NCBI GenBank assembly: GCA_022616665.1
Contig: JAKEFJ010000195.1
Location: forward strand, 1-43,091
Length of the DNA stretch: 43,091 nucleotides
Origin: Acidobacteriota bacterium
GTDB taxonomy: Bacteria > Acidobacteriota > Polarisedimenticolia > Gp22-AA2 > AA152
Reading direction: 5' to 3'
Each line of letters starts with the position of its first letter. The stretch's first letter is position 1. Below the pieces are notes generated by a model. That model ran no database searches. It had not been told where the DNA came from and was given only the letters and a program-made list of their open reading frames with translations. Below, one piece after another: positions 32,209 to 42,342 of this stretch. A program made the position numbers and the translations under genes.

Positions 32209-33251
32209 GCCGACCTCTTGCGAGGCAGGAAACCGGAACTCACCAGATACTCCGCCAGACGCACGGCGTTGAGCGCCGCGCCCGCGGCCAGGTTGTCGGT
32301 AACTCCCCAGAACCAGGCTCCGTTCCGGGCAGCCGGGTCGCACCGCACCTGCAGGAGGATGCCTTCCTCCCCCGCCAGTTCCGCAGGGGTGGCCGCCCCG
32401 GAACCTTCCAGAATTCTCAGGCTCGGCTCCGAGGCCAGCGCCTTCCGAATCCCTGTCTGGTCCACGGCATGGGCGAAACGCACCCAGCAGCAGAACGAGT
32501 GGCAGTGGAACACGGGCACGAGCAGCACGCGCAGAGCATGGAGAAACGGCTTTCCTCCGACGATTGCCTGGGTCTCCCGCGTGATCCAATCCTCGCTGAA
32601 GCCGCTTCCTCGCCCCAGAGTGGCCGGCATCACATTGAAGGCCAGCACTCGCTCGAACCGCTGCTTCGGGACCTCGGCAAAACTCAAGACTCCCACTGTC
32701 TGTTTATGGAGCTCAGCGATTCCCTCCTCCCCCGCTTCCGAGGCCGGCTGCATCACCAGGCACACCGCTTCTTCCAGAGGAAGGGCGCGCGATAGAGGAG
32801 CCAGGAAGGTCGAGAGAAACTGGGAGATGGGGTGGGGAGAAGCGACAATCCCCGGGAGCGAGTGGATGGCTCGAGGATTGACTCCTGCATTGACCACGGG
32901 AACGCCATCCTTTCGATTGGCCGAATGGGTCAGATCAATGGCGGTGAATCCCCCCCGCTCTGGCCAGTCGAGAAGGCCTTCGCCCGTTCCCGGGGCGCCG
33001 CAGAAGAAAGCGAGATCCACTTGGGTCATGGCGTCCGGGTCGGGCCGGACGGCCAGCATCGCCTCCCCGTCGAACTCCGTGAGATTTCCCCCCTCCTCCA
33101 CCGCGCCGGTATCGAAGGAGCGGACCTGGCCTACCGGGAAGCCGCGCTGGAGCAAATGGGTCTTTACCCCTTTCCCCACCAACGTCGAGGCGTCGAAGAG
33201 CGCAATGTTGACCGACTCCGGACCGTGCGAAAGCGGGCTATTCCGCCCCAT
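32205..33251 (-). CDS. Usg-1-like aspartate-semialdehyde dehydrogenase homologue lacking the catalytic cysteine
   Basis: 348 residues. It aligns along its length with Asd: NIALFDASTLVGKGVKTHLL at the N-terminus, LAFNVMPATLG in the middle, FWGVTDNLAAGAALNAVRLA at the C-terminus. In Asd the active-site motif is IIANPNCSTIQ; here the same positions read IVASPHPISQF, so the catalytic Cys is Pro. The later catalytic His region is kept (VPVFHCHS). E. coli Usg-1 is an Asd homologue with the same kind of loss. It probably lacks dehydrogenase activity, and its role is unknown. ATG 33251 overlaps the pssA end by 14 bases. Confidence 0.85.
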   Translation of the reverse strand: MGRNSPLSHGPESVNIALFDASTLVGKGVKTHLLQRGFPVGQVRSFDTGAVEEGGNLTEFDGEAMLAVRPDPDAMTQVDLAFFCGAPGTGEGLLDWPERGGFTAIDLTHSANRKDGVPVVNAGVNPRAIHSLPGIVASPHPISQFLSTFLAPLSRALPLEEAVCLVMQPASEAGEEGIAELHKQTVGVLSFAEVPKQRFERVLAFNVMPATLGRGSGFSEDWITRETQAIVGGKPFLHALRVLLVPVFHCHSFCCWVRFAHAVDQTGIRKALASEPSLRILEGSGAATPAELAGEEGILLQVRCDPAARNGAWFWGVTDNLAAGAALNAVRLAEYLVSSGFLPRKRSA

Positions 33252-34014
33252 GGGTCTGCTCCGCCGGAAGCCGTCCGGCCTCCTCTCGGCCATCGCTCCG
33301 CCCGGGCAGGAGTCCCCGCGGCACCACCCCCGAAAGGACGTAGAGGAAAGCCATCCCCAAAAGGACCTGCTCGGGCCACGCGAAGATGGCCAACACAATC
33401 AGGATGGGAACGAACAGAACGGGGTACGGGCGGCGCGCCTTGAGATCCAGCTGCTTGAGGCTTCGATAGCGCATCCGGGAGACCATGAGCACCGCCAGCG
33501 TCACGAGGAGGAGCCAGACCAGTCCCGCCATCAGGGGGTCTTGCACCGGTCGCGGGTAGTAAAACACCAGGGCCGCCACCGCCCCCGCAGCCGCTGGTAT
33601 CGGCAGACCCACAAAATGGAGCCGGTCCGTGGTGGAGGCCTGGATATTGAACCGGGCCAGCCGCAATGCGCCGCAGAGAACGAAGCCGAAGGTGGCCACC
33701 ATTCCCGGCCGGCCGAGACTCGATAGGGCCCAACAATAGGCGAGGACCGAAGGTGCCACTCCAAAGGAGATGAGATCCGCAAGGGAATCCAGCTCGCGGC
33801 CGAAGTCGCTGGCGGTGCCGGTGAGTCTCGCCACGAGCCCATCCATGCCGTCCAGCAGGATCGCCAGGGCGATGAGGATCGCCGCCAGTCCGTACTCTCC
33901 GCTGATGGACTTGAGAAGCGAGATGAGCCCGAAGAATAGGTTGACCGATGTCAGGACGCTGGGCAGCGAAGCCCCGCGCCGGAATCGGACTTTACCGTGC
34001 GTTCGCCTGCGCAA
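33238..34014 (-). CDS. pssA: CDP-diacylglycerol-serine O-phosphatidyltransferase PssA
   Basis: PssA makes phosphatidylserine in the inner membrane. The CDP-alcohol phosphotransferase signature is complete: DGLVARLTGTASDFG then RELDSLAD, fitting DG-x2-AR-x8-G-x3-D-x3-D (about 57-79). Several transmembrane helices follow. I choose TTG 34014 because GGAG (34025-34022) is seven bases upstream; TTG 34020 is only one base from it. It overlaps psd by 23 bases. With psd it supplies phosphatidylethanolamine. Confidence 0.93.
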   Translation of the reverse strand: MRRRTHGKVRFRRGASLPSVLTSVNLFFGLISLLKSISGEYGLAAILIALAILLDGMDGLVARLTGTASDFGRELDSLADLISFGVAPSVLAYCWALSSLGRPGMVATFGFVLCGALRLARFNIQASTTDRLHFVGLPIPAAAGAVAALVFYYPRPVQDPLMAGLVWLLLVTLAVLMVSRMRYRSLKQLDLKARRPYPVLFVPILIVLAIFAWPEQVLLGMAFLYVLSGVVPRGLLPGRSDGREEAGRLPAEQTHGAE

Positions 34015-34654
34015 ACTCAAGCTCCCCCTTGTGAGGGGATCCCACCGGGATCCTCGCCAGGATGCTGCTTCCCCCTCTGACCTTGGAACCCACCACCACT
34101 TCCGGTTTGGCCTTGGGAGGAAGCACCACCTCCAGCCGTGAGCCGAACTGAATCAGGCCAATCCGCTCGCCGGCTCTCACCGGATCCCCGGGTTTCTTCC
34201 AACACACGATGCGGCGCGCGACGAGCCCGGCGATTTGCGACAGGCGCACCTCACCGATTTCGGAATCGATGGTCAGATCGTTGCGCTCGTTTTCCAGGGC
34301 CGCGCGGTCTACGTTCGCGGGGAGGAATCGTCCGGGGTGGTATTGCACGCTGCGAACAACCCCGGCAACCGGAGCCCGATTGATGTGAACGTCGAACAGT
34401 GAGAGAAATATCGAAATCCGGATCCGCCCCCCTTCCGCGAGAGTTCGAATTTCAACCACGCGGCCGTCTCCAGGCGAGACGACCAGCCCCGGCTCTGTGG
34501 GAATCTCCCTTGCCGGGTCCCTGAAGAAGAACGCCACGAACCCCGAGAGCAGCAGGGCGCCGGCGGAGAGATAGGCAAACCCCAGCACGGCGCCGGCTGC
34601 CGCCACGGCCAGTCCCACGAGGAGGTAGGGATGAGACTCACGTGCCAGCGTCAT
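33992..34654 (-). CDS. psd: Phosphatidylserine decarboxylase proenzyme
   Basis: Psd decarboxylates phosphatidylserine to phosphatidylethanolamine. At 220 residues it is the short form found outside enterobacteria. N-terminal hydrophobic helices (about 10-45) anchor it to the membrane. FFRDPAREIP, VVSPGDGRVVEI and the His motif SLFDVHINRAPVAG are conserved. The self-cleavage site, usually LGST, is FGSR here (in GLIQFGSRLEVVLP); the Ser that becomes the pyruvoyl group is kept. It starts at ATG 34654, only 13 bases after a terminator-like hairpin. Confidence 0.93.
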   Translation of the reverse strand: MTLARESHPYLLVGLAVAAAGAVLGFAYLSAGALLLSGFVAFFFRDPAREIPTEPGLVVSPGDGRVVEIRTLAEGGRIRISIFLSLFDVHINRAPVAGVVRSVQYHPGRFLPANVDRAALENERNDLTIDSEIGEVRLSQIAGLVARRIVCWKKPGDPVRAGERIGLIQFGSRLEVVLPPKAKPEVVVGSKVRGGSSILARIPVGSPHKGELEFAQANAR

Positions 34655-34718: not shown

Positions 34719-34967
34719 TTAACGGGAGCCGGAAGCGGTGAGGTCGCCGTTTCGATGGTGTTGCATCAAGGCCTCCATCTTATCCTTTAGGTGGAGTTTT
34801 TTCTTCTTGATGTTCACCTCTTCCAGTTTTTCGTTGTCGTTGAGAATACCTTTTCCCTGGAGTTCTCGAAGTCGGGCCTCACAGGTTGCGTGGGACTCCA
34901 TCAAGAGTCGGAATTCATCGCTCTCTCTCCGAAGGACTTCTTTGAGCTCCCGGAAATCGGTCTCCAT
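34719..34967 (-). CDS. DUF465 (YdcH-like) small protein
   Basis: An 82-residue helical protein of the DUF465 family. It consists of two amphipathic charged helices (RELKEVLRRESDEFRLLMES; EKLEEVNIKKKKLHLKDKME) joined by a short turn, with the family's KKKKLHLKDKM segment. The function is not established. GGAGGT sits seven bases before ATG 34967. It has its own promoter (35011-35037) and terminator, so it can be made as a single-gene transcript. Confidence 0.85.
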   Translation of the reverse strand: METDFRELKEVLRRESDEFRLLMESHATCEARLRELQGKGILNDNEKLEEVNIKKKKLHLKDKMEALMQHHRNGDLTASGSR

Positions 34968-35088: not shown

Positions 35089-35604
35089 TCATAGGAAAGC
35101 CTTCATGACGAGGGCATCCTCCCGGGTGTCGGTGTAATACCCCTTCCTGCGACCCGATTCCCGGAAACCCAGCTTGGTGTAAAGGCTAATGGCCGCGGAG
35201 TTGGACGGCCGAACCTCGAGAGTCGCGGCGGTGCAGCCCAGGGTCTTGCCGAGATCCAGCAAGCTGCGCAAGAGGGCCTCTCCATAGCCCAGACCTCGGT
35301 ATTCTTCCCCAACCGCAATGTTATTGATTCGCACTTCTGCGTCCACCATCCAGGCGCTGGTGTAGCCGGCTACCGCTCCTTGGCTGGAACGGACAACCCG
35401 GTTACAGGCGAACGGGTTCCGTTCAATCTCGTGGAGGAAGCTCTCGTGGGTCCAGGGGATGGGAAACGTAGCTTGTTCGATGGCGAGGACTTCCGGTAAG
35501 TCCCGCGGGAGCATCGGTTCGATTCGGATCCCCCTCAGGGTCCCCGACCCAGCTCCGCGTCGGGTGGTCGGATGTAGTTGGGTTTCAGATTGCCGATGGA
35601 CCAA
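35089..35604 (-). CDS. rimI: Ribosomal protein S18-alanine N-acetyltransferase RimI
   Basis: RimI is a GNAT acetyltransferase that modifies the N-terminus of S18. The acetyl-CoA motif RGLGYGEALLRSLLDLG (about 99-115), NNIAVGEEYRG before it, and the RimI-typical LEVRPSNSAAISLYTKLGF and GYYTDTREDALVM are all present. The start is uncertain. TTG 35604 lies inside tsaB, while ATG 35514 would cut off the first strand (IRIEPM). CTG 35538 between them is also possible. It overlaps tsaB as in many bacteria where tsaB and rimI are adjacent. Confidence 0.88.
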   Translation of the reverse strand: MVHRQSETQLHPTTRRGAGSGTLRGIRIEPMLPRDLPEVLAIEQATFPIPWTHESFLHEIERNPFACNRVVRSSQGAVAGYTSAWMVDAEVRINNIAVGEEYRGLGYGEALLRSLLDLGKTLGCTAATLEVRPSNSAAISLYTKLGFRESGRRKGYYTDTREDALVMKAFL

Positions 35605-36215
35605 GGGCAGCCCTCCCTGTGTTTCCTAGCACCCAGCATTCCAAGGGTGGCCCCCAGAAAGCAGGGGCCCGCAACCAGTGGATCATTCCCCGTTCGCGAC
35701 CGGAGAATCAAGTCTCGGTACGTCCCGACCCCATCTCCACAGAAGAGTATGGGCTCGGAGGGAAGGGAGTCCAGAAATAACTCGGGATCCCCTCCTTGCT
35801 CCGGCAGAATCTCCCACAAATCTCCCTGGCGGCTGCCATAGAGCGCCGAATAGACTTCTCCCCTGCCGGCTCCGATCATGCATGCCACGGGAAGACCCCG
35901 AGCGCTGTACCGGTGCCCCAAAGCCAGAAGGGTGGAGAATCCAAAGGCGGGAACTCCCGTTGCCACCGCCAATCCCTTTACGGTGGCGATCCCCACACGC
36001 AGCCCCGTGAAGGTGCCTGGACCGAGAGCCACCGCCAAGAGATCCACCTGGGAGATGTCCAGGCCGACCAGGTCCAGGAGGAAGTCGATGCTCCGAAGCA
36101 GCTTCTCCTGATGGTGCTCTCCCGTGGCAAGGTTGATTTCCCCCAAGAGTCGCTCTTCCCGTCGGAGCGCCACGCTTCCGGCCGGGGTGGAGGTATCGAT
36201 GCCCAAGGCGATCAT
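35535..36215 (-). CDS. tsaB: tRNA threonylcarbamoyladenosine biosynthesis protein TsaB
   Basis: TsaB is the inactive partner that activates TsaD in t6A37 tRNA modification. The 226-residue ASKHA-fold protein starts MIALGIDTSTPAGSVALRR and has the family motif ALGPGTFTGLRVGIATVKGL (about 67-86), followed by GVPAFGFSTLLAL. The N-terminal half is well conserved, the C-terminal half less so, as usual. ATG 36215 abuts the stop of the upstream GGDEF-PilZ gene (TAGATG), so the signalling genes and this one are probably co-transcribed. Confidence 0.94.
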   Translation of the reverse strand: MIALGIDTSTPAGSVALRREERLLGEINLATGEHHQEKLLRSIDFLLDLVGLDISQVDLLAVALGPGTFTGLRVGIATVKGLAVATGVPAFGFSTLLALGHRYSARGLPVACMIGAGRGEVYSALYGSRQGDLWEILPEQGGDPELFLDSLPSEPILFCGDGVGTYRDLILRSRTGNDPLVAGPCFLGATLGMLGARKHREGCPWSIGNLKPNYIRPPDAELGRGP

Positions 36216-37424
36216 CTATCCGGGCCGTGGCCTCTCCCGTTGAAGAAAGCGAGCCACTTCGGCCTCCTGATGTTCCCACTCCAGGATAAACGCGATCCCC
36301 ACATCGAAGCGGCCCGGCATTCCCCGATCATCCAACTCTTCCACCCGCACGACGCGCCCCTTGAGCGTGAGCTGGTCGGAACCGCCCGCATCGTGGCATT
36401 TCACCACGACACACTCGCCAATTCCATAGGGGCGCGCCGTTTCCACCATGAGACCGCTCCGGCTCACGTTTTTCGCCTGCGGTGGAACGGGCTCCGGGAG
36501 AGGATGGTCGGAGGGTTTCACCTCGATGCTCAGGGCCCGGTGACTGGGATCGAAGCGGATGAAATTCCTCCTCTCCCGATAGTACACCGCCACGGAGTTC
36601 GCTCCTCGAGCCTTGGCCTGATAAAGCGCTTCCTCCGCTCGAGCGATGAGACGCTCCCCTACCGTGGAATCGTCCGGGTATTTGGCGATCCCGATGCTGA
36701 GCGTCATATGGATGGGCTTCCCGTCCACCTCTCTGCGGACAAAGTGCCGCTCGATCTCCATGCGGATGCGTTCCGCAACCAGGTAGGCTCCCATTCGCTC
36801 CGTCTCGGGAAGCATGAGCACGAATTCTTCTCCGGCCCAGCGGGCTGCCACGTCGATGTCGCGAATCTTGTTCTTGATCAAAATCGCCACTTCCTTCAAC
36901 AGGATGTCTCCCACCAGATCGCCGTATCGCTCGTTGATCTCGCGGAAATTGTCCAGATCCATCGACAGCAGGCAGAGCTCCAGCTCGTACCTTTTGGAGC
37001 GCCTGAGCTCCCTCTGAAGGCTGGACTTGAAGGAGCGCTGATTCGTAAGCCCCGTGAGGGAGTCTAAAGCGCTGGATCGCTCCGATTCCTCAAAGACCGA
37101 CATTTCGATAATCTTCGGCCGGGTGAGCTTTCGATTGACGTTGATGAAGTAATCGAAAGCAGCCACCCTCAGGCCGACTTCCCGACCGACCCGCGCAATC
37201 AGATGAATCCGATGCTGGAGGACGGCGTTCCAGTGGCTGCGTGCTTCCTCCTCGTCCATCATCAAGTGGGTGAGAATCAAAAGCAGGGCGGAATGGACCT
37301 GAATGCCGGTTTCGCAGCGGATCTGGGAAAGGCGACCCAGGATGCGCTCTTCATTGTGGGAGTCCTCGTCCAACAAAGCCAGCAGCTCACCCTTGACTCG
37401 TTCGACCTCGTGGGGAGTGATCAA
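36216..37424 (-). CDS. GGDEF-PilZ protein, probable active diguanylate cyclase
   Basis: 402 residues. An N-terminal helical domain of about 115 residues that I do not recognise ends in FDYFINVNRKLTRPKII. A GGDEF domain follows (about 118-280: DSLTGLTNQRSF; MDLDNFREINERYGDLVGD). Its signature is AGEEF (usual GG[D/E]EF), and an RxxD product-inhibition site (RDID) lies five residues before it. A C-terminal PilZ domain (about 288-395) has RxxxR (RNFIR) and NVSRSG. It could therefore both make and sense cyclic di-GMP. TTG 37424 has AGGAG six bases upstream, 8 bases after its paralogue. Confidence 0.87.
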   Translation of the reverse strand: MITPHEVERVKGELLALLDEDSHNEERILGRLSQIRCETGIQVHSALLLILTHLMMDEEEARSHWNAVLQHRIHLIARVGREVGLRVAAFDYFINVNRKLTRPKIIEMSVFEESERSSALDSLTGLTNQRSFKSSLQRELRRSKRYELELCLLSMDLDNFREINERYGDLVGDILLKEVAILIKNKIRDIDVAARWAGEEFVLMLPETERMGAYLVAERIRMEIERHFVRREVDGKPIHMTLSIGIAKYPDDSTVGERLIARAEEALYQAKARGANSVAVYYRERRNFIRFDPSHRALSIEVKPSDHPLPEPVPPQAKNVSRSGLMVETARPYGIGECVVVKCHDAGGSDQLTLKGRVVRVEELDDRGMPGRFDVGIAFILEWEHQEAEVARFLQRERPRPG

Positions 37425-37432
37425 GGGTGCTC

Positions 37433-38641
37433 CTACTCCACGCCCTGACGGCGGATGAGCTCCAGGAACTTTTCCAGGGATGCTTCGGTCGCTGGGCTGG
37501 GGGTGAAGAACCTGACGCCCGTGCGATAGATGCTGCCCTCGGCCTTCGGCGCCGCCTCGGCACGGATGACCCGGGCCTCGAGGGATAGCTCCATCTTGAG
37601 GGAGTCGCTGGTCATCCGAAGCAGCAAGTCCTCCCCTCGCGCGAGCGCTGTCGGACCTTCAAGGAGGGCACCAGACCGGCTGATATCCCGGACTCGAACC
37701 CAGCCCGCCGCATCCGACCCTCGGCGCTGGGCTAGGGATTTGACCGGCGCCCCCATGGGTCTCAGCCGCAAACAGCGGCGCTTCTCCTGATGATGCAACA
37801 TGACCTGGTTTCCACCCTGGCTACGTGCTCCGGAGAGGGCCTGCACCGCGCGCTCCAGCAGGCACTGTGCCGTGTCGCCATCGTCGGGATAGGCCGCGAG
37901 CCCCCCGGATAGGGTCAGGGCGATGACTGGGCCAGCAGGACCCGCCCGGAGGTATGCGTCCCGTACCGCGATCCGGATTCGCTCGACTGCGACATGGGCG
38001 CCTGGGCGGCGCGTGAGCGGGAGCAGGAGGGCGAAGTGACCTCCGCCCAAGCGCCCGGCCAGGTCCATGTCCCTCAAGCGGGCTTGAATCAACATGGCCA
38101 CTTCCCTGAGTACGCCATCCCCGGCGGCACGGCCATGGCTGCGATTGACCCGCTGGAATCCATCCAGGTCCAGGACAGCCAAGGTGAATTCTTGAACCCT
38201 TCGGCTGGCCCGGCGAATCTCGCCACGGATGGCCTTACGGAACGTCCTCTCATTGGGGAGGCCCGTTAATCCGTCGGCGTCGGCGGCGCTCTCGGCGATT
38301 TCCATCGCCGACTCGTCCACAAATTTGGGGCGGGAAAGGAGCCGCTGCTCATTCATGAGGTAGTCCATCGCGGCGACGCGCGTACCCGGATCCCTCCCGA
38401 GTCTCCAGGTCAATTCTTCCCTACGCAGCGCGATGGCGTGCCAGTGCCCGGCGGCCTCGTCCTCCTTCATCTCCAAATGGCTCAGAAAGGAGATGAGAGT
38501 GGCATGCACGGGAAATTGATCGGCGAGGCCGAAGTCGCGGGCCCTGGCCGCGGCTGTGGAGGGCTCCGGGGAATCGAGAAGGGAAAAGAGCGCCTCGCGC
38601 TGTTTGGGGCTGATCCGGTGGGGGGATAACCAACCCTGCAA
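37433..38641 (-). CDS. GGDEF-PilZ protein, degenerate cyclase and probable cyclic di-GMP receptor
   Basis: Also 402 residues, a tandem paralogue of the next gene with the same three-part layout. The N-terminal domain ends in MDYLMNEQRLLSRPKFVDES. In the GGDEF domain the signature is GGGHF, losing the acidic metal- and GTP-binding residues, so catalysis is unlikely. The RxxD inhibitory site (RDMD) is kept five residues upstream. The PilZ domain keeps RxxxR (in EKRRCLRLRP) and DISRSG. The start is TTG 38641, with AAGGGAG (38654-38648) six bases away. It heads the ~20 kb minus-strand run. Confidence 0.85.
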   Translation of the reverse strand: MQGWLSPHRISPKQREALFSLLDSPEPSTAAARARDFGLADQFPVHATLISFLSHLEMKEDEAAGHWHAIALRREELTWRLGRDPGTRVAAMDYLMNEQRLLSRPKFVDESAMEIAESAADADGLTGLPNERTFRKAIRGEIRRASRRVQEFTLAVLDLDGFQRVNRSHGRAAGDGVLREVAMLIQARLRDMDLAGRLGGGHFALLLPLTRRPGAHVAVERIRIAVRDAYLRAGPAGPVIALTLSGGLAAYPDDGDTAQCLLERAVQALSGARSQGGNQVMLHHQEKRRCLRLRPMGAPVKSLAQRRGSDAAGWVRVRDISRSGALLEGPTALARGEDLLLRMTSDSLKMELSLEARVIRAEAAPKAEGSIYRTGVRFFTPSPATEASLEKFLELIRRQGVE

Positions 38642-38669: not shown

Positions 38670-38699
38670 ATCCTAGCTTGCGCGAAATCTCTCTGTCAA
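38670..38699 (-). promoter_or_regulatory. Promoter of the GGDEF-PilZ pair
   Basis: Minus-strand TTGACA (38699-38694) and TAGGAT (38675-38670) with an 18-base spacer lie about 30 bases before the TTG start at 38641. This is a good sigma-70 promoter at the head of the minus-strand run, in the 186-base gap shared with the divergent sigma-factor gene. Confidence 0.65.
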
Positions 38700-38827: not shown

Positions 38828-39457
38828 ATGCGGGACACGCGACTGGCTCGTCGCTCAGAAACGGAGCTCGCCGCGGGCCGGATTGGCCCGGCTCCCCTCC
38901 CGTCCGACGAGCTCCTGGTGACTCGCATTCTCGCCGGAGAAGCGGATCTCTACGAGGCCCTGATCGCCCGGTATGAGCGCCCGATCGTCAACTTCATCTA
39001 CCGGATGATCGGCGATTATGAGCAGGCCCTCGACCTCGCCCAGGAAGTCTTCTTCAAGGCGTACCGGTCGCTGGAGCGCTTTGATCCTACCTTTCGATTC
39101 TCCACCTGGCTGTATCGCATTGCGTCAAACAGAAGCATTGATCACTTGCGCAAGCAAGCTCCCGTGCTTCTGTCCCTGAACGACTCCAGGGAGAGCGACA
39201 ACGGCCCTGAAGGGGCCATCCAGCTGAAGAGCGCTGCCCACGGACCTGAAGATCTTCTGGCGTCTCGGGAGTTGGGGGAGCAGATTTCCCACGCCATCGA
39301 TGCTCTTCCAACCCCCTACCGCGAGCTGATTCTACTCAGGCATCTCCAGGGGATGTCCTACGAAGAGATTGCCCGGATGAAGCGATTGCCCCTCGGGACC
39401 GTGAAAAACCGCCTGTTTCGCGCCCGCGAGATTCTTCGCAAGAGACTGGAGTCCTAA
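38828..39457 (+). CDS. RNA polymerase ECF-family sigma factor (RpoE-like)
   Basis: 209 residues. Region 2 (about 45-115) has FIYRMIGDYEQALDLAQEVF and the -10 recognition stretch FRFSTWLYRIASNRSIDHLR. Region 4 (about 145-200) has LPTPYRELILLRHLQGMSYE and the helix-turn-helix LPLGTVKNRLFRAREILRK. A 40-residue N-terminal extension precedes region 2, rich in Arg and Pro. It overlaps the anti-sigma gene by one base (TAATG), the usual pairing. The regulon is not visible apart from the candidate site upstream. Confidence 0.95.
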   Translation: MRDTRLARRSETELAAGRIGPAPLPSDELLVTRILAGEADLYEALIARYERPIVNFIYRMIGDYEQALDLAQEVFFKAYRSLERFDPTFRFSTWLYRIASNRSIDHLRKQAPVLLSLNDSRESDNGPEGAIQLKSAAHGPEDLLASRELGEQISHAIDALPTPYRELILLRHLQGMSYEEIARMKRLPLGTVKNRLFRAREILRKRLES

Positions 39458-40056
39458 TGGAATCGTGTGCCCGGGTCACCGGCCTCCTGCCAGAATTCGT
39501 CGAAGGAGAGATTCCGCTCGCCGACTCCGGCCGAGTCGGAGACCACCTTCGTGTCTGTGGTGCCTGCCGACGGAGGGCAGAAGGCCACCGCCGAACTTTG
39601 CAGGCTCTGGATTCTCTACCCCAGGTCGTTCCGCCGTCCGAATTGAGGCTTTTGGTGATGCGCCTGGTCCGCAAGAACCCTCTCTCCGTCGGCCGCAAGA
39701 GCGTGCCTCACCTGCGGCTGGTGAAAGCGATTTTCTGGGCAGCCTTCGTTGGCATGGCGTCTCTTACTTCGGGCGCCGGAGCCCTCTTCGTGGCGCGGGC
39801 CTCTCTGGGCAGAACCTCCCTCGCCGATCCCACTTTGCTTACCGATTGGCTCATCGCCCTCGGGCAGCTGGCTTTCTCCTTGGTCGTCAATGTGGCCACC
39901 CGGGCGGAAATCCCCTCCCTCTTCTCCACCCCCAGGAGCCTCACTTTCTGGGGAGGTGCATCGGGCTGGATGATCGTCCTGGGTGCCACCTGCGTGGCGA
40001 TGGCTTTCGGCATTCTCGCCACCGCCCGCGTTGTCTTCCGTCCGCGGAGCCGTTGA
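39457..40056 (+). CDS. Anti-sigma factor with zinc finger and three membrane helices
   Basis: 199 residues. The N-terminal zinc-binding anti-sigma domain has His30, Cys34 and Cys37 (DHLRVCGAC, HxxxCxxC) with Cys4 as probable fourth ligand. Then come three predicted membrane helices: about 90-112 (IFWAAFVGMASLTSGAGALF), about 127-147 (DWLIALGQLAFSLVVNVA) and about 168-190 (MIVLGATCVAMAFGILATA). It likely holds the upstream sigma factor at the membrane until a signal arrives. Three helices rather than one is less common for this class. Confidence 0.88.
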   Translation: MESCARVTGLLPEFVEGEIPLADSGRVGDHLRVCGACRRRAEGHRRTLQALDSLPQVVPPSELRLLVMRLVRKNPLSVGRKSVPHLRLVKAIFWAAFVGMASLTSGAGALFVARASLGRTSLADPTLLTDWLIALGQLAFSLVVNVATRAEIPSLFSTPRSLTFWGGASGWMIVLGATCVAMAFGILATARVVFRPRSR

Positions 40057-40134
40057 GTCCGTTCCCCATTTTCCTGCCTTTCGGATCTCCCGCTTCTCCG
40101 CGATGGTGCATGGGACCGCGCTCCGGGAAAATCT

Positions 40135-40163
40135 TTGACAATTCTTTGACTGAGCATTATATT
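40135..40163 (+). promoter_or_regulatory. Consensus sigma-70 promoter of prkA
   Basis: TTGACA (40135-40140) and TATATT (40158-40163) are separated by exactly 17 bases, about 110 bases before the prkA ATG. This is among the best matches in the window, and it leaves a leader of about 105 bases. Confidence 0.8.
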
Positions 40164-40275
40164 GCGCAACGGAGCGCCTCCGAGTGGAAGAACTATCTTC
40201 TTTCCAATAGGTTCCTGACGGCGGCGCAGGATTCATCAATCGAAACATCGAACCGGCTTGGGAGGCGGAGAGGCC

Positions 40276-42342
40276 ATGTCATCGGGCACCGAAGTAATCC
40301 AGATGATCGGCAGGCTCCAGGACTTGAAGGGTTTCAGGGACCAGCATTGGGAAGGAAGTTTCGAAGACTATCTGCAGATTGCCAGGCAGAACCCGCGCGT
40401 GACCCGCTCGGCATTCCAGCGGGTGTACGACATGATTCTCGCCCAGGGGACGCGGGAATACTACGAGTACAAGAAAAAAATCATTCACTACAATTACTTC
40501 GACGATAAAAGCCACGGCGGCGTGGACGCAGTTTTTGGATTGGACATTCCCCTGATGAAGATGGTGAATGTCTTCAAATCCGCGGCGAAGCGTTACGGAA
40601 CCGAACGGCGCGTGTTGCTCCTCCATGGCCCAGTCGGCAGCTCAAAAAGCACGATCGTCCGACTCCTCAAGAAGGGGCTCGAGGACTACTCGCGCACCCC
40701 GGAGGGTGCCGTTTACACTTTTTCCTGGATCGTGGATGAGGAGAATACCCGGAAGAAGCAGGATCAGGCGGTGGCGGAAATCCCCTGCCCCATGCACGAG
40801 GAGCCGCTGCACCTCATCCCCTTGGACCTGAGGGGCGAGATTCTCTCCAAGCTCAGTGAGGGGAAACCCGAGACCGAGCGGATCTCCGTGGAAGGGGACC
40901 TCTGCCCGGCCTGCCGGCAGCAATACAAGGAGCTGAACCTCCGGTTCGGCGGCGACTGGACCCGGATCATCTCCCACGTGAAGGTTCGCAGACTGATCCT
41001 TTCGGAGAAGGATCGAATCGGTGTCGGAACGTTCCAGCCCAAGGACGAGAAAAACCAGGACTCCACCGAGCTCACGGGGGACATCAACTACAGGAAGATC
41101 GCCGAATACGGGGCCGATTCGGATCCCCGGGCCTTCAACTTCGACGGCGAGTTCAACATCGCCAACCGGGGCCTCATCGAGTTCGTGGAAGTGCTGAAGC
41201 TGGACGTGGCATTCCTCTACGACCTGCTGGGCGCTTCCCAGGAGCACAAAATCAAGCCCAAGAAATTCGCCCAGTGCGACATCGATGAGGTCATCATCGG
41301 CCACACCAACGAGCCCGAGTACCGCAAACTGCAGCACAATGAGTTCATGGAGGCATTGCGGGATCGGACGGTGAAAATCGACATTCCGTACATCACCAAG
41401 CTCGCCGAGGAAATCAAGATTTACGAGAAGGACTACAACCCAGCCCGAATTCGCGGCAAGCACATCGCGCCGCATACCATCGAGATGGCCGCCATGTGGG
41501 CCATCCTCACGCGTGTTGAGGAGCCCAAGAAGGCGGACTTGACGCTGCTCCAGAAACTGAAGCTTTACAACGGAAAGACGCTCCCGGGTTTCACCGAGGA
41601 CAACGTCAAGGAGTTGCGGAAGGAAGCGATGCGCGAGGGGATGGACGGCATCTCTCCGCGCTACATCCAGGACAAGATCAGCAATGCCCTGGTTTCGGAC
41701 AAGGGAGAGGGATGCATCAATCCCTTCATGGTGCTCAACGAGCTGGAAAGCGGGCTAAAGCACCACTCCCTGCTCACCAACGAGGAGCTGCGGAAGCGTT
41801 ACCGGGACCTGCTTTCGGTGGTCAAGCAGGAATACGAGGACATCGCCAAGAACGAGGTCCAGCGGGCCATCTCGGCGGACGAGGAGGCCATCAGCCGCCT
41901 GTGCGCCAATTACATCGACAATATCAAGGCGTATACCCAGAAGGAGCGGGTCCGGAACAAGTACACGGGCCAGGACGAGGAGCCCGACGAACGGCTCATG
42001 CGCTCCATCGAAGAGAAGATCGACATCCCGGAGAATCGCAAGGACGATTTCAGGCGGGAGATCATGAACTACATCGGCGCTCTGGCCGTGGAGCGCAAGA
42101 CCTTCAACTACCGCACCAACGAGCGGCTTCACAAGGCCCTGGAGCTCAAGTTGTTCGAGGATCAGAAGGACTCCATCAAGCTCACGAGCCTGGTGAGCAG
42201 CGTGGTGGACAAGGAAACCCAGGAGAAGATTGACGTGGTCAAGAGCCGCCTCATCAAAGATTACGGCTACTGTGACGTCTGCGCCACAGACGTGCTGAAC
42301 TACATCGCCAGCATCTTCGCCCGGGGGGACGCGCGGGACTGA
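40276..42342 (+). CDS. prkA: PrkA family serine protein kinase
   Basis: 688 residues from ATG 40276, with GGAG at 40267-40270. The N-terminal AAA domain has an unusual Walker A typical of Prk[10 protein letters not shown] (about 116-124), and [19 protein letters not shown] before it. A Cys/His set ([10 protein letters not shown], then LCPACRQQY) could bind zinc. The C-terminal half (about 400-680) is the PrkA-specific domain. In enterobacteria its homologue YeaG works with YeaH and YcgB/SpoVR in stress and stationary-phase responses. The next gene here is a YeaH homologue. Confidence 0.95.

Follow-up and report, generated by a model that had tools for sequence, protein, structure and literature searches.

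Why does a soil acidobacterium carry, side by side, two paralogous GGDEF-PilZ genes of which one looks catalytic and the other degenerate, and what might the degenerate protein do? The question is raised by contig JAKEFJ010000195.1 (43,091 nt, referred to below as the window), which comes from an acidobacterial metagenome-assembled genome whose nearest named relative is AA152 (L010, 82-83% identity for the downstream paralogue). No description of this pair was found in the open-access literature searched.

The tandem genes and their neighbourhood

The pair consists of two open reading frames on the minus strand, separated by 8 nt, each with a TTG start. They are referred to here as up and dn, and residues are given in dn numbering. 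The features of the locus are as follows.

33238..34020, minus strand: pssA, CDP-diacylglycerol-serine O-phosphatidyltransferase (NCBIfam TIGR00473, over cut-off)
33992..34654, minus strand: phosphatidylserine decarboxylase family protein (Pfam PF02666, over cut-off)
34719..34967, minus strand: DUF465 small protein (profile match)
35089..35604, minus strand: rimI (NCBIfam TIGR01575, over cut-off)
35535..36215, minus strand: tsaB, directly after dn with a gap of 0 nt (NCBIfam TIGR03725, over cut-off)
36216..37424, minus strand: dn, downstream paralogue, 402 aa; putatively helical N-terminal region (residues ~1-113), GGDEF (119-276), PilZ (284-394)
36822..36836, minus strand: codons of the dn active site AGEEF (residues 197-201; position derived from the ORF start at 37424)
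36852..36863, minus strand: codons of the primary I-site RDID in dn (residues 188-191; position derived from the same start)
37433..38641, minus strand: up, upstream paralogue and first in the presumed operon, 402 aa; architecture as dn, GGDEF site GGGHF
38670..38699, minus strand: sigma-70-like promoter match ahead of up, TTGACA-18-TAGGAT (consensus match only)
38828..39457, plus strand: divergent ECF-type sigma factor gene (TIGR02937, over cut-off)

Both proteins exceed the curated Pfam cut-offs for GGDEF (E-values: 3.5e-43 and 1e-31) and PilZ (E-values: 2.4e-8 and 3.1e-10), with dn scoring 147.6 bits against a GGDEF cut-off of 23.8, and they are 34% identical across 395 aligned columns. The motifs are DLDNF..N..GD and RDID-VAARW-AGEEF in dn and DLDGF..N..GD and RDMD-LAGRL-GGGHF in up; PilZ motifs RxxxR and [DN]xSxxG are found in both. 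The original prediction of two tandem 402-aa GGDEF-PilZ paralogues, one with AGEEF and the other with GGGHF, both keeping RxxD and the PilZ motifs, is borne out by the domain matches and by the sequences as read.

In dn, the motif [GAS]G[DE]EF is present as AGEEF, and the equivalents of D327, N335, D344, E370 and K442 are D156, N164, D173, E199 and K271. Activity is known for enzymes with AGDEF or SGDEF (PMC3974145), and dn is predicted to be an active diguanylate cyclase. Up retains D156, N164 and D173 at the metal and guanine positions; the equivalents of E199, E200 and K271 are lost, and acidic residues are absent from the third and fourth A-site positions (GGGHF). It is predicted to be inactive as a cyclase, with its I-site and PilZ motifs retained. 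A Hypr (cGAMP-making) GGDEF domain, the hallmark of which is Ser or Thr in place of the D344 equivalent (PMC6456294), was ruled out for the pair, both copies having D173.

The N-terminal region (approximately 113 residues, motif GRDxGxxVAxxDY) is common to the two copies. AlphaFold models, with a mean pLDDT of 46 for dn (from a 4-sequence alignment) and 54 for its N-terminal region, suggest at low confidence that the region is all-helical, and no convincing relative was found among solved structures (best E-values: 0.62 and 0.25). This domain had been described as shared and unrecognised. It is indeed shared, but it is not wholly unrecognisable: dn has a weak DUF4032-like motif (Pfam PF13224), scoring 13.6 bits, which is under the gathering score of 23.8 and so does not make it a member. 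Weak DUF4032 matches at E-values up to 1 were obtained for 27 of 66 members (best 7.8e-5), and four stand-alone proteins from elsewhere in the phylum (L123, L125, L126 and L127) pass the DUF4032 cut-off and share the N-terminal motif. The motif is also present in L124, and all of these are small stand-alone open frames of 78-132 aa.

The proposed run into tsaB and envelope genes holds, in that TsaB, RimI, phosphatidylserine decarboxylase and PssA are each matched by profile. The decarboxylase falls just under one NCBIfam cut-off (222.2 versus 225) and over another (190.1 versus 183), and a semialdehyde-dehydrogenase-like protein is also encoded among the downstream genes (profile match). The pair is linked to tsaB and the phospholipid genes by position alone. 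The promoter match ahead of up was observed once against 0.2 expected from shuffled sequence. Up and dn are presumably co-transcribed from one operon. On the other side of the pair, genes for the ECF sigma factor, a zinc-finger protein and PrkA (38828-42342) are divergent; in family f2 the gene that diverges from the pair is that of PrkA, and none for a sigma factor was detected between them. The window's assembly (2.8 Mb, 274 contigs, about 90% complete) contains 9 matches to dn, the pair included, the remainder covering the GGDEF part, as well as 4 PilZ matches (two in the pair) and 2 EAL domains.

Distribution and age of the duplication

With the N-terminal region of dn as query, 29 of 41 genomes of the class were matched, and 35 stretches were compared (34 within the class, one outside it). 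In the 41 class genomes 23 tandem pairs were found, 22 of them first and the last (L080) through a search for divergent f2 up copies. In every one of the 22 pairs that could be assessed, dn is followed by tsaB; the other pair, L104, breaks off within dn. Homologues of rimI, psd and pssA lie farther along in most. The two genes of a pair share a 4-nt overlap in 15 of the 21 rows measured, which is what coupled translation would predict. In a sample of the phylum a match was found in 47 of 396 genomes, and neither a tandem pair nor a tsaB hit was found in 20 stretches from 17 genomes outside the class. Within the class, no up copy was found beside dn in G026 (L091), the tsaB locus of L090 (3326-4942) carries a single copy with a degenerate GGDEF domain and without PilZ, and dn of L086 (4262-6591) is split by a frameshift that is either genuine or an assembly error.

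In a 56-row tree, a branch with support of 98/97 separates the dn copies from the rest, and when 12 relatives from outside the class were added the dn copies formed one clade (98/94). In the latter tree, 21 of 22 up copies group with the long-branched single copy of L090 (95/94), while L093_up is placed near the dn stem; a single up clade that includes L093_up is absent from the best tree but is not rejected by the AU test (p of 0.235, run without L090 and L102_up, the two long rows). These trees exclude L086_dn (frameshift), L104_dn (contig end) and L080_up (found later). L086_dn is omitted from most counts as well, though its AGEEF motif was read, and the start of L076_dn has masked bases. 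Because dn forms one clade and up nearly one, the duplication predates the families sampled here; in the favoured reading it was a tandem event at the tsaB locus, early in the history of the class. The phylogeny thus agrees with the duplication originally proposed, and neither copy branches with unrelated families.

The 12 outside-class relatives, together with L088 and L110, have GG[DE]EF along with each of the further residues checked (the metal-site Asp, the Asn and the Lys), six having Asn at the D344 position. As these proteins are canonical, the ancestral single protein was probably active. The class also contains a third group of GGDEF-PilZ paralogues (outparalogues L084, L087, L089, L092, L099, L100, L103, L107 and L109) with the motifs GGEEF, GGEEL or GGDEF. 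The D344 guanine-specificity position is Asn in eight of these nine and His in L087; it is likewise Asn in six outside-class relatives (L117-L122). Substrate preference could differ in these proteins.

Catalytic and inhibitory sites across the pairs

Judged by motif, dn is canonical and up degenerate in 11 of the 23 pairs (f1, 4/4; f2, 7/7). Two f2 members need comment: L086_dn is frameshifted in its assembly with AGEEF present, and the D344 equivalent of L082_dn is N. The assignment is reversed in nine pairs (two in f8, two in f9 and five in f10), in which up is canonical and dn degenerate; L097_up has GGEEI. Both members are canonical in one pair (L093, f7). In another (L102, f10) neither is, so the combination of producer and receiver is not universal. 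L102, from a single-contig genome (G034), retains the I-site and PilZ motifs in both of its non-canonical members. The remaining pair (L108, f11) is ambiguous: L108_dn has SGGEF, and in L108_up the metal site is covered by an in-frame gap, which may be an artefact of assembly.

Degeneration is milder in the dn copies of f8-f10, where GEDEx or GSDEx is found in 9 of 10 and the acidic residues are kept. The GEDEF domain of Caulobacter CC3396 is described as binding GTP and being inactive as a diguanylate cyclase (PMC4823724), and on this one precedent the f8-f10 dn copies are probably inactive. Degeneration requires at least three changes on the tree (L108_up and L091 unscored). By these motifs, catalysis has been lost reciprocally, the dead copy differing between lineages.

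In PleD, R359, D362 and R390 bind dimeric c-di-GMP together with R313 contributed by the partner (PMC7288161), and DgcR uses another possible arginine position in its I-site (PMC8041772). By offsets from the PleD ranges (2wb4, 9g85), the equivalents of these four residues in dn are R188, D191, R219 and R142, respectively. Up has lost its A-site and kept RxxD as well as the R390 and R313 equivalents, and in the window pair each of the two alternative secondary positions (142 and 145) is occupied by arginine. R145 aligns with R198 of WspR.

Across the first 10 aligned up copies of f1 and f2, 142 GGDEF columns are fully filled. Of these, 16 are invariant, among them the columns of all four I-site residues (hypergeometric P of 1.1e-4 for the four named columns, a figure that ignores shared ancestry, treats columns as equal and concerns sites picked from the literature). 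L080_up, the eleventh copy of the window's order, lies outside this figure and agrees with it. R219 (equivalent to PleD R390) and R221 are both invariant in the f1 and f2 up copies, while losses, complete or partial, affect D156, N164, D173, G198, E199, E200 and K271. In f2 up copies the entire DxD-to-N loop is gone; the whole GTP half-site is lost there and the I-site kept. All four I-site residues are present in each of the 23 degenerate copies, and canonical copies nearly always keep them too; the I-site therefore outlasts the active site, with no gain implied.

Among the 22 assessable degenerate copies, RxxxR is present in every one and [DN]xSxxG in 19; the latter is broken in L077_up, L078_up and L097_dn, two of which belong to the window's own family. 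PilZ is the fastest-changing domain in comparison with AA152 (identity of 44% in up and 67% in dn). Whole-protein identities to AA152 are 58% for up and 82-83% for dn, up being the faster-evolving. The corresponding dN/dS values are about 0.22 and 0.046, and because dS is saturated only their direction counts: both genes are constrained, up less so. The reading frame of up is open throughout the 23 pairs, with the in-frame gap in L108_up.

The original prediction of a split into producer and receiver therefore stands in part. Duplication with subsequent divergence into catalytic and non-catalytic copies is well supported and class-wide, with the roles reversed in other families, and the receiver role of the degenerate copy is supported indirectly, at the level of sequence, by the retained I-site and, mostly, the PilZ motifs.

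What the degenerate copy may do

On balance, we favour as somewhat probable a history in which a tandem duplication, with one copy dying as a cyclase, gave a c-di-GMP producer and a c-di-GMP-binding pseudo-cyclase. The ancestor would have been a single protein with a helical N-terminal region, an active GGDEF domain and PilZ, duplicated ahead of tsaB. One copy would then have lost cyclase catalysis while retaining the allosteric I-site and mostly PilZ, and it is this retention that would make the pair a producer and a binding pseudo-cyclase. In the window, dn would synthesise c-di-GMP under feedback inhibition at its I-site and sense it through its own PilZ domain; up would bind c-di-GMP and relay the signal or restrain dn through I-site cross-linking. 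With I-site residues of the primary and the secondary kind in both copies, up and dn could form a cross-linked mixed dimer. A two-subunit module of an active cyclase and its twin pseudo-cyclase, each with an I-site and a PilZ domain, cross-linked by c-di-GMP, with tunable feedback and the catalytic role in opposite subunits by lineage, is a more tentative proposal that we consider less likely than not. The sequences themselves show the anatomy of the proteins, their conservation, the phylogeny and the loss of residues, from which we infer cyclase activity, ligand binding, output and any contact between up and dn.

The degenerate copy might instead be a dominant-negative or scaffold partner, which pairs with the active copy by way of their shared N-terminal region or the stalk, so as to block or tune homodimerisation of that copy, c-di-GMP binding being secondary. 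The N-terminal region common to both proteins and their single operon with 4-nt overlaps are in keeping with this, as is CdgI of E. coli, which has a degenerate GGDEF domain, keeps its I-site intact and contacts active GGDEF domains (PMC5635695). However, in up copies of the sister family f2 the stalk and the DxLTGL turn are lost or Gly/Pro-rich and the I-site is kept. This speaks against a dimer of the catalytic type in f2, and we regard a scaffold role as rather unlikely. The degenerate copy could also be a relic in decay that has no function itself, its I-site and PilZ residues persisting structurally or by slow decay; this would fit the faster evolution of up (58% versus 82% identity to AA152), the broken PilZ motifs of some copies and the lack of a detected up copy beside dn in G026. 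Such a relic is improbable given that dN/dS is about 0.22 for up (dS saturated), that its frame is open in 23 of 23 pairs and that I-site residues are invariant where catalytic residues are gone. We give slightly less credence still to up as a sensor of GTP or another nucleotide rather than a c-di-GMP receptor: D156, N164 and D173 are kept in the window's up and the CC3396 GEDEF domain binds GTP (PMC4823724), but up has lost the E199, E200 and K271 equivalents, and f2 up copies are without the whole GTP half-site while the I-site is still there.

The closest published parallel found for a producer paired with a binding pseudo-cyclase is E. coli CdgI with DgcT and DgcX (PMC5635695). CdgI likewise has a degenerate GGDEF domain and an intact I-site, binds c-di-GMP, shares its type of N-terminal domain with active cyclases and is reported to make heteromeric GGDEF contacts; unlike here, the available text on CdgI makes no mention of PilZ, tandem genes, class-wide pairing or a swap of roles. 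PopA, PelD, CdgA and SgmT are cyclase-dead GGDEF proteins acting as c-di-GMP receptors (PMC3974145, PMC4877007), the part proposed for up, whereas the dead copy here has PilZ, a second possible c-di-GMP site, and adjoins its predicted active paralogue. CC3396 has the type of substitution seen in most f8-f10 dn copies, but its GEDEF domain is linked to an EAL phosphodiesterase and not to PilZ (PMC4823724). PilZ-GGDEF proteins of saprophytic Leptospira, known from a table count, combine the same two domains; the likeness noted is one of domain content, and the source as available describes no degenerate twin (PMC5932348). Finally, DgcR and PleD are cross-linked by dimeric c-di-GMP bound to RxxD and a secondary arginine, residues as in the pair, but they have receiver input domains, and their dimer halves are identical and both catalytic (PMC8041772, PMC7288161).

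Catalytically degenerate GGDEF domains make up 24% of diguanylate cyclases (PMC3974145), and the evolution of cyclases into receptors has mostly been inferred from isolated cases. Here, after a duplication at a fixed locus, opposite copies have, by motif, lost catalysis and kept the inhibitory site in at least two lineages, and in f7 both are still intact. Such matched pairs make two things directly testable: the order of loss, in which the A-site goes first and the I-site stays, and how a dead partner is used. If the cross-linked two-subunit module is real, it would be a natural experiment in pseudoenzyme evolution, run with the roles reversed.
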